From Candidatus Saccharimonadota bacterium (lineage in GTDB: Bacteria > Patescibacteriota > Saccharimonadia > Saccharimonadales > Saccharimonadaceae): a stretch of 34,568 nt of DNA. The stretch is from assembly GCA_018060465.1 (NCBI GenBank), contig JAGOVX010000005.1, positions 1 to 34,568 of the forward strand, given 5' to 3'. The translations under genes and the position numbers were made by a program. Positions 13,440-18,260 of the stretch are shown in pieces; the first letter of the stretch is position 1; each line of letters opens with the position of its first letter. The notes under the pieces were generated by a model, which did no database searches, was not told where the DNA came from, and was given only the letters and a program-made list of their open reading frames with translations.

Positions 13440-14858
13440 TTATTGCTCGTCTGCAGGAATAATTGCCTCAGCCCAAAGCTGAAGTTCCTGGACGATAAAC
13501 TGCTGGCTATCACTTGTGCTTTTGGAAAGACGCTGCAAAGCTTTTACAAATGGTTGCAGCTGGCTATACAGCCGCTTTTTGCGCCACAGTTCCCACTGCT
13601 CAACTTCATCTTCACTTAGACTAGCTGCGAAGCTACGTGCTTTGTAATGTAGCAATAGTTCAGGTAGGCGCTCGTCTTGGAAGTCGGGATGTACATCGGC
13701 CAGCTGATTGGCATCGGCATTTCGTATCATCTCGACCCGCAGCTTGTCACGATCGGCCAAAAAGCCATCATATAGCTGCGATTCTGGGTCGGTACCAGGC
13801 TTAAACTCACGAGACTTTTCATAAATAGTACGTAGTTTCTCGGCAAAGTCTGGATGTTGTAGCAATACTTTCTTGTGAGCTTCTATGTCCTCGAGGCGTA
13901 ACCCAATTCGATCCCAGCCATCTGCGTGCTCAAGTACCCCAAGTGGCGATACGGCTGGACAGCGATTGTACTGCAATACTTTAGTTGGCAGCGCCCTAAA
14001 GCCTTCTGCCTTGCGGTCTTCCCACGAAGCAAACACTTTTTTGGCAAGTTCATCAACTGATAAACTCACAAATTCAGTTGGGTCGTGACGCAAATCATAC
14101 ACGACAACATTGCCATTTGGCGCTGCTGTTATAGGAAATGCGATTGTCGCCTTGTGATAGGCAGCGTCAAACCGTCCACTTACATATACAAACGGTCGCT
14201 TTTCGTCGAGCTGTACCAGCGCTTGAACGGCTTTCTTGTCACGCATGCGCAACAAATGTTCAAATAGTTTTGGCTGCGTGCCTTTTACCAGACTGGCTAC
14301 TGCTATTAAGGCCCGTACGTCACTCAGTGCATCGTGGGCGTTCGTGTGTTCTAGCGTGTTGGCCTTGGTCAATAACTCTAGCCGATTTGTCGCGTTTCCG
14401 TCTGCATCGATTGGCCACTCGATTCCATCAGGCCGGAGTGCACGAGTCATGCGTACGACATCCAACATGTCCCAGCGACTACGACCTTCACTCCATGCCC
14501 ATTCATATGGGTCGTAAAAATTGCGCCACAAGATGTGACGAATAAATTCGTCGTCGAAACGTACATTATTAAATCCAACAGTAATAGTATCTGGTAAAAA
14601 GATCTCGTCAATAAGTAGCTTGGAAAATTCAGCTTCAGTTAACCCGTCAGACTGAGTAGCCTGTGGCGTGATGCCCGTTACTACTACCGCATCTGGGCTA
14701 GGCAATGTGTCATCGTTTAATTTTACAAAAATATTGTATGGTTCGCCGATTGGCTGCAAGTTCATGTCGGTACGCTGGCCAGCAAATTGCATTATTCGAT
14801 CGTCCCTGCCAGATAACCCACTCGTTTCAAGATCGTAAAAGAAAAAACTTTGACTCAT
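13440..14858 (-). CDS. sbcB: Exodeoxyribonuclease I
   Basis: A 472-residue DEDDh 3'-5' single-strand DNA exonuclease similar to E. coli ExoI along its full length. The exonuclease domain carries FFFYDLETSGL (Exo I motif, DE pair at about residue 10), GFNNVRFDDEFIRH (Exo II) and EHTNAHDALSDVRAL (Exo III, H-x4-D, about 180). It is followed by the SH3-like and helical C-terminal regions characteristic of SbcB and absent from plain DnaQ-type exonucleases. It acts in recombination and mismatch repair by removing 3' single strands. The ATG at 14858 has no ribosome site; TGCTATGCT, an extended -10, ends 8 nt upstream, so the message is probably leaderless. Confidence 0.9.
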   Translation of the reverse strand: MSQSFFFYDLETSGLSGRDDRIMQFAGQRTDMNLQPIGEPYNIFVKLNDDTLPSPDAVVVTGITPQATQSDGLTEAEFSKLLIDEIFLPDTITVGFNNVRFDDEFIRHILWRNFYDPYEWAWSEGRSRWDMLDVVRMTRALRPDGIEWPIDADGNATNRLELLTKANTLEHTNAHDALSDVRALIAVASLVKGTQPKLFEHLLRMRDKKAVQALVQLDEKRPFVYVSGRFDAAYHKATIAFPITAAPNGNVVVYDLRHDPTEFVSLSVDELAKKVFASWEDRKAEGFRALPTKVLQYNRCPAVSPLGVLEHADGWDRIGLRLEDIEAHKKVLLQHPDFAEKLRTIYEKSREFKPGTDPESQLYDGFLADRDKLRVEMIRNADANQLADVHPDFQDERLPELLLHYKARSFAASLSEDEVEQWELWRKKRLYSQLQPFVKALQRLSKSTSDSQQFIVQELQLWAEAIIPADEQ

Positions 14859-14866
14859 TACTATTT

Positions 14867-14872
14867 AGCATA
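14867..14872 (-). promoter_or_regulatory. Extended -10 box of sbcB
   Basis: TGC-TATGCT on the minus strand, 8 nt before the ATG. It lies downstream of the ncRNA terminator, giving sbcB its own start. Confidence 0.45.
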
Positions 14873-14892
14873 GCAGGTTTTGTAATAAGTAC

Positions 14893-14918
14893 AGAAAACC
14901 GCCCAGACTTCTGGACGG
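14893..14918 (-). terminator. Intrinsic terminator of the structured RNA
   Basis: A 9-bp stem (14899-14907 with 14910-14918, one G-U pair, very short loop) followed on the minus strand by TTTTCT. It lies 15 bp after the closing helix of the RNA and before sbcB. The only minus-strand unit it can serve is the RNA locus or read-through from obgE. Confidence 0.75.
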
Positions 14919-15110
14919 GAATATTGCAAATAATGACAAGATAGTACTGAGACTCTACGCAGGGTGATGGGGGCGAGACCACCACCCTGCGTAGATGTCA
15001 TGTGCTTACATCTAGGAGGTAGTGGCTTTGGGGCGCAGTTTGCTTTCTAGGCAAGCCGCGCCCCAAATCAAACGGCACGAATCATGCACATACTGATGCA
15101 CCTTCCGGTT

Positions 15111-15266
15111 TCAGCGATTGGATTTTAGGAGGCGAAAAGCGTCGTCTGGCCGTTGCCAGAGACGTAGCAATGCTGCGCGATCACCGCGCGATCCGTGTGG
15201 TGCGGAGAAATAGTGACGGTCGGCATAAGCTGCTTCTTTCTTTTTTCTCGAACCAAATAAAGTCAT
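15111..15266 (-). CDS. Doubtful 51-aa basic reading frame inside the structured RNA
   Basis: ATG at 15266 opens a frame beginning MTLFGSRKKKEAAYADRHYF and ending in DDAFRLLKSNR. The composition is protein-like and basic, so I keep it as an alternative or dual-function reading. Against it, there is no ribosome site, the ATG lies inside a 10-bp stem (15259-15282), and two further stems run through the frame. A longer frame to 15317 also lacks a ribosome site. Confidence 0.25.
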   Translation of the reverse strand: MTLFGSRKKKEAAYADRHYFSAPHGSRGDRAALLRLWQRPDDAFRLLKSNR

Positions 15267-15415
15267 TCGGATGAACGACTTTAGCCATTCCAGTGCAGAA
15301 CAGCGACAAATACACAAGAATAATGTCCTTGTCGCTATTCTGCACGCACTGTACTATCTTGTCAAAGAACTTTTCAGGATTCGGTTGCCCGTCTCTACCT
15401 CAAAGTATGAAGTAG

Positions 15416-15444
15416 ATTGTACCCCAATCTTCGACTCTATGCAA
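15416..15444 (-). promoter_or_regulatory. Promoter of the structured RNA
   Basis: TTGCAT (15444-15439), a 17-bp spacer, and TACAAT (15421-15416) on the minus strand. The -35 begins just after the obgE stop codon. Transcription would start near 15409, about 45 nt before the closing helix. Confidence 0.65.
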
Positions 15445-15449
15445 GCGTT

Positions 15450-16748
15450 TTATTGCTCTATTAGTGTAAATTCACTTGCACCTATGCGCACCACCGAGTC
15501 ACCTTGCGCCCCTTGACGGGTAAGTTCGTGGGTAATGCCCATTTTTTTCATAATGTCTCGCAGGCGATTTACGTTCTCGTACCCAGAGAAATTGGTACGC
15601 CGAGCAAACTTTTCTATTTTTGCACCTGAAACCACATACACGACAACTGTACTATCGGCTTGCTTTTGTACTTGCCATGACAGGTCTTTTGCTTCGGATG
15701 ACAGTGTAATCCTGGGTACATCCTCTGTGGCATCTGCCTGACTATCATTTTCTGCTGTCGCCGCATGCGCTTTGGCAACATGCTGCACAAGTACACGTAG
15801 TGTTTCCTTCAGGCCTTTATGTGCAAGCGCCGATATAGCTAGTATGTCACTATTTGGTGCCACAGTTTTCAGGGCATTTATCTGCATATCAATAAGCTCG
15901 CTGTCTAAGCCTTCAATTTTCGTAAGGACAATGACTTCAGGGCGATCTACTAGTGCCTGACTGTACCTCGCTAGCTCTTGTCGAATTGTTGTATAATCTT
16001 TGGCAATATCATTTGAGTAGGCATCGATCAAGTGGAGTAGCACGGCCGTTCGTTCAATATGACGCAAAAATGCATCTCCCAGGCCTTTACCCACACTGGC
16101 GCCCTCTATCAAGCCAGGAATGTCGGCGATTAGCAGGCTAGTATCGTCAATATCGGCGACTCCAAGGTTTGGCGTCAATGTTGTAAAAGGATAATCGGCA
16201 ATCTCTGGGCGCGCATTTGATACCACACTGAGCAATGTTGACTTACCAGCGTTGGGGAAGCCGACCAAGCCTACATCGGCGAGTAGCTTCAACTCAAGTT
16301 CTGCCTCAAATGTATCACCATCTTCACCTAGTTCAGCGATTCGTGGCGTTTGACGTGTTGACGACTTGAAGTGGGCGTTACCAAAACCACCATCCCCGCC
16401 CCTCGCGATTGTCGCCTCTTGATTGTCGTCAGTCAGGTCAGCAACGACATGGCCGCCACGTTTTACGATAGTACCCATCGGCACTTTTACAATCAATGGC
16501 TCGCCAGATCTGCCGGCACGATTGCGCTTGGCACCGTTGGCACCTGGCTTGGCTTTAAGCTCTGGCTTGTAACGAAAATCTAGCAATGTATTGACGTTTT
16601 TTGAGGCTTGGAAAATAACATCTCCGCCTTTGCCACCGTCACCACCGTCAGGACCGCCTTTGTCGACATAAATTTCATGGCGAAAACTGACAGCACCATT
16701 GCCGCCCTTTCCTGCCTGAATAAAAACTGTTGCTGTATCAACAAACAT
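15450..16748 (-). CDS. obgE: GTPase Obg
   Basis: A 432-residue Obg GTPase, a ribosome-associated essential GTPase involved in 50S maturation and stress signalling. The Gly-rich Obg domain spans about residues 1-158 (RHEIYVDKGGPDGGDGGKGG; GGDGGFGNAHFKSSTRQTPR). The G domain follows, with the P-loop GFPNAGKSTLL, switch region PFTTLTPNLG, G3 DIPGLIEGA and G4 LTKIEG. About 80 residues of a C-terminal OCT domain (about 350-430) complete it, ending FSGYENVNRLRDIMKKMGI and a short tail. The length is normal. The ATG at 16748 has no ribosome site but a TATAGT box ends 8 nt upstream. It is followed directly by the promoter of the structured RNA. Confidence 0.96.
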   Translation of the reverse strand: MFVDTATVFIQAGKGGNGAVSFRHEIYVDKGGPDGGDGGKGGDVIFQASKNVNTLLDFRYKPELKAKPGANGAKRNRAGRSGEPLIVKVPMGTIVKRGGHVVADLTDDNQEATIARGGDGGFGNAHFKSSTRQTPRIAELGEDGDTFEAELELKLLADVGLVGFPNAGKSTLLSVVSNARPEIADYPFTTLTPNLGVADIDDTSLLIADIPGLIEGASVGKGLGDAFLRHIERTAVLLHLIDAYSNDIAKDYTTIRQELARYSQALVDRPEVIVLTKIEGLDSELIDMQINALKTVAPNSDILAISALAHKGLKETLRVLVQHVAKAHAATAENDSQADATEDVPRITLSSEAKDLSWQVQKQADSTVVVYVVSGAKIEKFARRTNFSGYENVNRLRDIMKKMGITHELTRQGAQGDSVVRIGASEFTLIEQ

Positions 16749-16822: not shown

Positions 16823-18001
16823 CTAGTGAATATATTGGTAGCCACGGGCTTGGCCAGCCGAAATAGTACGCTGGTTTACGATACCAAAGCCACCATAGGC
16901 GTAGTTGTTCATTTCGGTTATCACTATGTCACCGTTTGATTTGACGCGCTCTACCACACCCACGTGTCCAAAGTATCCAGATGAATCTACCAAGACTGCA
17001 CCGGCCGCAGGGTTATTGTTGACGGGATAGCCTGCTGTACGAGCGTTGATAGCCCATGTATTGGCGTTACCCCAGAAGCTACCCACTGGACGACCCAGCT
17101 GCGCACGGCGTTCATAGGCATACCAGGTACAGTTTCCGTAGTAATATCTGTTACCCGCAGAAGTTTTCGCTAGATTGACATCAACAATGCTACTGCTGAT
17201 CGAGCCAGTTCTTCCAACCGCAGCCGAAGTGGTTTGGGTTGTAACAGGTGCGGCCTCTACTGGCTTGACACCATCTGGTACAACAATCCTGTTGCCGGCC
17301 TTTACCCCACTTAGCTCTAGGTCGTTTATCGAAACAATACGAGCTGCGTTCGAGCGGTACTCCTGAGCTATTGAACCTGCGGTTTCACCACTCTGAACCG
17401 TATGAAGCACGCCACTAACAGGCAATATAACAAGTTTTCGTCCTGGTTCAATCGCATCAGTATCGGCCATATTGTTTGCCCAACGAATAGTATTGGCAGA
17501 AATGCCAAATTGACCTGCAAGCGAGGAGACGGTGTCGCCTTTCTTTGCTTTGTAGGTGGTAATTGAACGATTTGTATTGGTTGGCTTTACAATTTGCGGC
17601 TTGCTCACTGCTGTAGTATCTGTCTGAGCAAGTTCACTTTTTACTGTCATAGAAATAGACATACTGGCTGCACTTGCGGCAATTGGTAGATTTGCTCGTT
17701 CGGCTAAATCTGCGGTTATGTCTGTCGCAATCACTTCATCTACCGATGGAACAGGAGCAACGTAGGTGGCGTCTGCGGCAGTAACCTTTAGTAAGTCTGC
17801 CTGCTGAACTCCAACGCCTTTTGGCGCATCGTACCCCACCGCAACAATGGCTATGAGGAATGAAAATATTCCAAGATACCCTGCGATGTGTGATGCAGAT
17901 AATTTTCGTTGTTTCGAAGCGCGTTTTTGTTTCACAGCGGCTGGTTGCTTGGTAGCTTCAGCCTTTGCTAGAGCAGTGCTCGGCGCAATATCGTTACGAA
18001 T
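16823..18001 (-). CDS. Peptidoglycan hydrolase with two LysM and a CHAP domain, ATT start
   Basis: A 392-residue exported cell-wall enzyme. After a basic N-terminus there is one hydrophobic segment (about residues 37-56, AGYLGIFSFLIAIVAVGY) acting as signal or anchor, an Ala/Thr-rich linker, two LysM peptidoglycan-binding repeats (about 150-195, KKGDTVSSLAGQFGISANT; and 198-240, VQSGETAGSI) and a C-terminal CHAP amidase/endopeptidase domain. The CHAP domain has the catalytic Cys in GNCTWYAYERR and His in FGHVGVVE. The only start with a ribosome site is ATT at 18001 (AGGAG, 7-nt spacing). The frame is closed by TGA 10 codons upstream. The alternative GTG at 17935 has no ribosome site and gives 370 residues. 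The gene has a roughly 250-nt leader and its own near-consensus promoter. Confidence 0.88.
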   Translation of the reverse strand: MRNDIAPSTALAKAEATKQPAAVKQKRASKQRKLSASHIAGYLGIFSFLIAIVAVGYDAPKGVGVQQADLLKVTAADATYVAPVPSVDEVIATDITADLAERANLPIAASAASMSISMTVKSELAQTDTTAVSKPQIVKPTNTNRSITTYKAKKGDTVSSLAGQFGISANTIRWANNMADTDAIEPGRKLVILPVSGVLHTVQSGETAGSIAQEYRSNAARIVSINDLELSGVKAGNRIVVPDGVKPVEAAPVTTQTTSAAVGRTGSISSSIVDVNLAKTSAGNRYYYGNCTWYAYERRAQLGRPVGSFWGNANTWAINARTAGYPVNNNPAAGAVLVDSSGYFGHVGVVERVKSNGDIVITEMNNYAYGGFGIVNQRTISAGQARGYQYIH

Positions 18002-18260
18002 TGTACTTCTCCTGCCAGACTCGATTGCTCAAGAAGGCTTCTACCATACTTTGTCTTTCTTCCTACACGTGGTGTAAGAACGAGGCACACTTGATCGACC
18101 AATTTATTAGTTAATATTGCTTCTAAATAGTTCTCGTTCGGTGCCCGTACGACAGTTCGGGTAGGCCCATTTTATTGCTTGAAAACGCTATCTCTTGCTA
18201 CTGAACTCCGGATGGAATTCTACACAAGACTCACTATCAACCATAAAATGTGCTCCTTTC
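18002..18260 (-). other. Long 5' leader of the LysM-CHAP gene
   Basis: About 250 nt lie between the promoter and the ATT start. It contains an 18-codon frame (18244-18188), a CCCG/CGGG hairpin around 18145-18170 and a small TACAC-CAC-GTGTA stem around 18060. I do not recognise a known riboswitch; in particular the conserved parts of the cyclic-di-AMP (ydaO) class, which often precedes such hydrolases, are not apparent. Post-transcriptional control is an inference from leader length alone. Confidence 0.4.
18188..18244 (-). CDS. Possible 18-aa leader peptide before LysM-CHAP gene
   Basis: The frame MVDSESCVEFHPEFSSKR starts at ATG 18244, with AAAGGAG 8 nt upstream. It is the first frame after the promoter. 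The ribosome site overlaps the expected transcription start, so its use depends on the exact start point. No function is known. Confidence 0.35.
   Translation of the reverse strand: MVDSESCVEFHPEFSSKR

Follow-up and report, generated by a model that had tools for sequence, protein, structure and literature searches.

Hok-type mRNAs are closed by pairing between their 5' and 3' ends, carry small ORFs and are of great stability. The RNA locus described here lies between obgE and sbcB in a window of 34,568 nt (the whole stretch of DNA that was analysed, from contig JAGOVX010000005.1 of a Candidatus Saccharimonadota bacterium). It resembles such type I toxin mRNAs (hok/AapA-like) in that an ORF for a small peptide is placed inside a highly structured, 5'-3' closed and presumably stable mRNA. 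It differs from them in lacking an identified antitoxin, in having hypervariable and mostly non-hydrophobic peptides, in its actinobacterial codon and stop usage, and in its additional conserved mini-ORFs. With tmRNA the element shares a long-range helix that closes a structured RNA with a short ORF within, but no tRNA-like domain was found in it, and its ORFs are unrelated and vary in length. Like OLE, GOLLD, ROOL, HEARO and raiA, it covers several hundred nucleotides, forms its own transcription unit and has an ornate fold, but no Rfam match to any of these RNAs was obtained; to our knowledge, they have been described without a systematic hypervariable ORF.

The rRNA precursor is a further point of comparison. 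There, as in the element, a leader hairpin and a BoxA-like box are followed directly by a long 5'-3' helix around the RNA body (rrn antitermination and leader-trailer biology, PMC10250234). The element differs from an rRNA precursor in being short, in containing no rRNA, in having its own intrinsic terminator and in the presence of ORFs. From the comparison of related loci, the element is interpreted below as a polycistronic mRNA that is protected and encodes small peptides, and that is most likely intended for translation in an actinobacterial host.

The locus and its predicted fold

A promoter, a perfect 14-bp closing helix (P1) that encloses 403 nt, internal stems and a terminator are all present on the minus strand, as had been reported in the initial annotation of this DNA (Table 1). 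The internal inverted repeats of the RNA measure 22, 17, 17 and 11 bp. The predicted fold of the locus RNA had an energy of -218 kcal/mol, a value reached by 0 of 100 dinucleotide shuffles, with a z of -11.4 for the minus strand that is stronger than the -8.7 of the plus strand. The same annotation had seen no convincing protein gene, which was wrong: an ORF of 33 codons, preceded by a weak Shine-Dalgarno (SD) sequence, is present and has equivalents in related loci. Taken alone, this ORF would not have convinced as a gene.

Table 1. Features of the obgE-sbcB element in the window (P1 to P3, helices).
Feature	Position	Strand	Basis or remark
Promoter TTGCAT-17-TACAAT	15416-15444	-	Exact position; relatives have equivalents
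BoxA-like, rRNA-type antitermination sequence GTTCTTTGACAA (putative)	15359-15370	-	Overlaps 5' arm of closing helix
Closing helix P1, 5' arm	15351-15364	-	Perfect 14-bp inverted repeat, pairs with 14934-14947; covariation in 31 distinct elements
Hairpin P2, 22-bp arms, 86% complementary	15293-15345	-	Just inside P1
11-bp hairpin TAAAGTCGTTC/GAATGACTTTA	15258-15283	-	Inverted repeat
Weak SD-like sequence AGAAAGAAG	15233-15241	-	Upstream of 33-codon ORF
33-codon ORF MPTVTISPHHTDRAVIAQHCYVSGNGQTTLFAS, TAA stop	15125-15226	-	GC3 and comparison with relatives
Mini-ORF MCMIRAV (TGA)	15068-15091	-	SD-like GGAAGGTG upstream, about 15099-15107
17-bp GC-rich hairpin GGGGCGCGGCTTGCCTAGAAAGCAAACTGCGCCCC	15027-15067	-	Inverted repeat
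Hairpin P3, 17 bp	14954-14995	-	Just inside P1 3' arm
Closing helix P1, 3' arm	14934-14947	-	Inverted repeat and covariation
Intrinsic terminator CCGTCCAGAAGTCTGGGCGG-TTTTC	14894-14918	-	Terminator-like hairpin 14918-14899, then T run; starts 15 nt past closing helix

None of 4227 Rfam models (6S, OLE, GOLLD, ROOL, HEARO and raiA among them) matched the locus at gathering score, and a permissive scan of the locus returned nothing meaningful; the absence of a known family, on which the initial proposal depended, was thus upheld. The layout had been likened to that of RNase P RNA or tmRNA, without the conserved sequences of either, and neither is encoded at the locus. The RNase P RNA models (RF00010/RF00011) gave no match in 14850-15480 even at E 10, and RNase P RNA-like partial hits, both below cut-off, were located elsewhere in the same genome (C26:7113-7390 and C45:5115-5273). 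The tmRNA of this genome (RF00023) was also found elsewhere, above cut-off, at C26:3832-4240, and ARAGORN called neither a tRNA nor a tmRNA gene in the window. One of the two partial RNase P hits stops at a contig end, and either one split gene or two copies are possible. A retron was rejected, the flanks being obgE and sbcB with no reverse transcriptase.

Homologous loci and shared architecture

A DNA search of 198 genomes of the family yielded the leader of one congener as the only true match, because the sequence of the element is not conserved. Homologous loci were collected by synteny through SbcB, as DNA similarity fails past the leader. The genomes compared are mostly MAGs, and their actinobacterial hosts are presumed. 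Within the genus of the window, an obgE-sbcB element of 488-808 nt was present in 8 of 14 genomes (equivalent to species), and the other six have a short gap of 24-84 nt, with the element absent at the locus. Of the 89 distinct obgE-sbcB gaps obtained across the family, 29 are shorter than 150 nt; among the 60 longer ones, a minority are occupied by ordinary protein genes or by other sequence. The closing helix was verified in 33 elements, which come from many genera besides that of the window, and some loci harbour tandem elements, two or three per gap (for example, L035 and L042). The leader pattern GTTGAAACN{2,8}GTTTCC was matched at most once per genome, and all five genomes with a match had it in the obgE-sbcB gap.

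The order of the parts was constant in these elements, with a sigma-70 promoter followed by a leader (often including a small hairpin), the BoxA-like box and P1. The promoters of the relatives have a constant spacer of 17 nt and mostly stand 40-51 nt upstream of the closing helix, and at least 9 of 12 consensus positions are matched in 28 of the 33 elements. A BoxA-like box (..TTGA/TTAA..) is conserved directly upstream of the helix in the 33 elements, and P1 begins at a fixed register after it. Similar boxes occur in the native 23S leaders of the genomes (for example, TTTAACAATTTGGATGTAAG), and the element therefore begins like an rRNA precursor; in the window's own assembly no LSU rRNA was found. 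The location of the box, directly before a 5'-3' helix, is that of a putative rRNA-type BoxA leader with a leader-trailer helix. In the members of the genus, P2 follows immediately after P1; the interior beyond it is variable, and the GC-rich P3, the P1 3' arm and the terminator complete the element. The long hairpins in the P2 position differ in sequence and occupy the same place.

The P1 sequences of 31 distinct elements differ widely, with 98.5% of cells paired and 133 compensatory cells compared to a mean of 34 and a maximum of 53 for shuffled 3' arms, and 16 divergent representatives gave 98.9% paired and 84 compensatory cells (shuffle mean 21, maximum 46), all of these values being inflated by the complementarity search through which P1 was found. 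Against this search bias, the box sets the register of the 5' arm, and we estimate the expected number of 11-mer complements in 600 nt at ~1.4e-4. Compensatory change in homologous loci, the lack of which would have told against the structured RNA first proposed, thus supports the closing helix. The sequence features, from the promoter and BoxA-like leader through P1, P2 and P3 to the terminator, delimit a ring-shaped scaffold in which the helix is kept through compensatory change and the sequence turns over.

Coding signatures within the scaffold

Most of the elements have a short, SD-preceded ORF downstream of the first long hairpin, P2, and the SD sites of the relatives (GAGAGGAG, AAGGAG, GGAGG) are stronger than that of the window. 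The GC3 of 22 such 5' ORFs, which were hand-picked by eye from lists of SD-preceded ORFs, a choice that favours GC-rich frames, had a mean of 0.88 compared to 0.44 in obgE and sbcB of the same loci, and was higher in every case (p 4.8e-7). Nearly all of the 22 are mutually unrelated. TGA was the stop codon in 19 of them, versus 16 of 213 native genes (Fisher 1e-15). For 15 of 18 short ORFs, the GC3 was unequalled: no stretch of the same length from the remainder of the gap reached it, whichever frame was read. The values by codon position in the short ORFs were GC1 0.51, GC2 0.56 and GC3 0.92, and GC richness alone therefore cannot explain the bias; the preferred codons are Ala GCC (share of 0.77), Gly GGC (0.89), Thr ACC (0.82) and Val GTC (0.76). 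Regional GC was rejected as a cause, since the remainder of each gap has an overall GC of 0.48. Translational selection as in highly expressed native genes was likewise rejected: the pooled GC3 of native genes from six genomes (n=213), ribosomal protein regions included, was only 0.38-0.46. By these statistics, the near-exclusive use of C/G-ending codons and the TGA stops are in the actinobacterial style, and unlike any native gene class tested.

The ORF of the window is among the weaker cases, with a TAA stop, a weak SD and a GC3 of 26/33 (0.79), where native genes have ~0.42 (binomial p 1.8e-5). No stretch of equal length outside it within the gap reaches this GC3, whatever the frame. Several elements are without a clear GC-rich ORF (for example, L031, L034, L045, L058 and L077). 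Most of the short-ORF peptides are rich in Thr, Ser and Ala and are non-hydrophobic. The only related pair of ORFs had a dN of 0.117, a dS of 0.062 and in-frame indels, whereas the values for obgE were 0.014 and 0.23; resting on two synonymous changes only, this is suggestive of a peptide that is changing with the codon ends held. Codon bias and stop use in the 5' ORFs, and the in-frame indels and apparent synonymous constraint of the sole related pair, are as in protein-coding sequence; in that pair dN is above dS, so the peptide does not show purifying selection of the classical kind.

In the 3' part of the elements, mini-ORFs of 4-9 codons with a strong SD were found 58 times on the transcript strand and 10 times on the opposite strand. 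A peptide ending in SGF-x-stop occurred 12 times on the transcript strand versus once on the other (MVRSGFT, MHTSGFT, MHYSGFT and MYTSGFI are examples), and this ending is kept between genera with synonymous codon differences. A second class of mini-ORF is basic (MRKRYI, MKKRHM, MKRCR). A hairpin often follows directly after the mini-ORF stop, with a mean of -9.3 kcal/mol compared to -7.0 kcal/mol for random stretches of the same elements (p 0.003). The stops of the mini-ORFs are mostly TAG, and their codons are mixed and more native-like. Mini-ORFs were weak or absent in several elements, including most of those in the genus of the window, and a class-wide search with the SGFT mini-ORF pattern returned three true elements amid near-chance noise. 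The presence, inside most scaffolds, of a hypervariable 5' ORF and then of 4-9-codon mini-ORFs with strong SD sequences is well supported.

The initial proposal holds in so far as the RNA is lineage-specific, standalone and highly structured, is of a kind not described before, and has a promoter and a terminator of its own. The other part of the proposal, a catalytic or purely regulatory non-coding RNA, could not be demonstrated and is at odds with small ORFs that bear coding signatures. As these signatures are systematic (GC3, stop use, SD and conserved mini-peptides), the term structured mRNA fits better. The element has been missed by gene finders because its ORFs are too short, and by RNA finders because its interior is too variable.

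High-GC3 genes outside the element

In the related genome G017 (UBA1050; 792 kb read), GC3 was above 0.70 in 19 of 724 genes, the codon shares of which were GCC 0.42, GGC 0.54, ACC 0.49 and GTC 0.51. These genes were apparently acquired horizontally, and the capture of actinobacterial DNA does seem to occur. On contig C1 of this genome (47% GC), islands of larger high-GC3, mostly TGA-ending genes at 270-281 kb and 733-738 kb were likely acquired from high-GC bacteria. Small GC3-rich ORFs preceded by an SD were observed on the same contig, outside the ring element: MGSSNSDWQMPASPPETEYSGTDITGVPIEELTGKIT (TGA) at ~139294-139407 on the plus strand and MPFYERQTNKRSTSDSQGAG... (TAG) at ~181524-181664 on the minus strand. 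Host-style small genes may extend beyond the obgE-sbcB locus.

Possible role of the element

Because their C/G-ending codons and TGA stops are unlike those of any native class tested, the 5' ORFs appear to be adapted to actinobacterial ribosomes, and such an adaptation would make the RNA most likely an effector message for the host. We infer that these ORFs are translated, and that this happens in the host. The reading that we prefer, and to which we would give slightly less than an even chance, is that the element is an armoured peptide mRNA produced by Saccharibacteria and meant for the ribosomes of the host. The constitutive-type promoter, the rRNA-type BoxA leader, P1, P2/P3 and the intrinsic terminator would together make a standalone armoured RNA. 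BoxA would let RNA polymerase read through a long, poorly translated structured RNA, and the helices would shield this RNA from exonucleases, during transfer and afterwards. The episymbiont would make the message and the host ribosomes would translate it into small peptides, whose place of action would be the host.

In culture, Saccharibacteria live as obligate epibionts on Actinobacteria (PMC11665869). Their epibiotic growth requires a conjugation-type (conjugation-derived) T4SS (PMC12102498), so that macromolecules have, in principle, a route; this T4SS, for instance, could be the route of transfer. The papers searched contained no report of RNA transfer. Delivery into actinobacterial hosts and translation there, with the hypervariable small peptides as effectors, is a tentative proposal, possible but some way short of probable.

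The main rival to a host-directed mRNA is cassette capture, in which a native RNA scaffold would repeatedly take up actinobacterial small ORFs, for instance for bacteriocins or immunity peptides, and express them for the bacterium itself, the codon usage simply reflecting their origin. Codon usage alone does not distinguish translation in the host from origin in the host. Unrelated cargo ORFs do occur in scaffolds with a common leader and P1 (such as L064/L066/L099), the related genome has other high-GC3, TGA-ending genes, both in an island and singly, and the longer cargo ORFs (146-204 codons) are intermediate, with a GC3 of 0.63-0.87. We nevertheless regard capture as rather doubtful. The short ORFs combine a GC1 that is not raised (0.51) with their GC3 of 0.92, their preference for C-ending codons is stronger than that of the probable horizontal genes, and dS was low in the one related pair, all of which argue for adaptation over origin; a codon bias beyond that of the high-GC3 genes of G017 suggests that the codons have been optimised and do not simply reflect where the ORFs came from. 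In addition, searches of Pfam, NCBIfam, PHROGs and phage records returned neither a family above cut-off nor a phage match for the four long cargo proteins (146-204 aa), and one of them had no match in plasmid records either.

The resemblance of the architecture to hok-type mRNAs, together with the hydrophobic peptide of L022 (MNDRFFTFLMMLCSTLAFATAGGRRVTS), might point instead to a type I toxin-like or self-acting peptide mRNA, where the 5'-3' helix silences a stable mRNA until processing and the peptide acts in the Saccharibacterium. This is unlikely, as the peptides are otherwise mostly Thr/Ser/Ala-rich and non-hydrophobic, no antisense RNA gene was identified, although one may exist (a simple scan for promoters across 14600-15700 gave none on the plus strand), and the foreign codon usage would be left unexplained. 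If the conserved units of SD, mini-ORF and hairpin were the core of a ribosome-engaging RNA, acting by ribosome sequestration, peptidyl-tRNA drop-off or stalling, with the 5' ORF secondary, the codon usage of that ORF would again have no explanation. The strand bias of the mini-ORFs, the SGFx-stop kept between genera and the better folding after the stops would suit such a function, but with mini-ORFs missing or weak in several elements we consider it very improbable. A large catalytic or regulatory non-coding RNA with incidental ORFs has the strong fold and the pre-rRNA-like BoxA leader and closing helix in its favour; it seems more improbable still, since no conserved core of sequence or structure was found between the hairpins, and the interior is swapped wholesale between relatives while the coding signatures persist.

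Much is still to be learned about the ways in which Patescibacteria/CPR episymbionts act on their hosts. If the host-directed reading is true, structured RNAs with ORFs for host ribosomes would add a new kind of effector acting between bacteria, and would offer a natural design for stable, deliverable mRNA. We know of no earlier case in which one bacterium acts on another through an effector RNA that is translated there. Even under capture, this would be a structured-RNA locus not described before, with mini-gene cargo that can be exchanged, and present across many genera of a widespread family. Existing Saccharibacteria co-cultures would allow the question to be tested, provided that the strains carry the element.

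Other RNA-like units and reading frames

Elsewhere in the window, the Rfam family lysM-TM7 was matched at 18009-18166 on the minus strand (82.7 bits, above gathering), upstream of an ORF for a LysM protein (16823-17935), and MDR-NUDIX at 2737-2796 on the plus strand (68.3 bits, above gathering score). These two families help to assign the window to Saccharibacteria (TM7). The L041 gap (genome G034) has, within the ring, an ORF of 168 codons whose product looks secreted (MSHSSNIGRRIFGLAATSG...ARADG...); no family, phage or plasmid match was found for it. In genus g2, sbcB is no longer next to obgE, and some of its members have a different short RNA-like stretch downstream of obgE; in L218 and L224 this is promoter-driven (GCTGGTACGCTTCACAGGG..TTCCACTGA..GTGGAGTGTGGAGAC..) and possibly represents another small RNA family. 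A second compact RNA-like unit, with arms acagcgacg/cgtcgctgt, was observed at ~1965-2150 of L009 (the gap of G138), and its reading frame ends VISDKLRDFIDRLRRKLRKHAPQVGVA, which is cationic and amphipathic in appearance.
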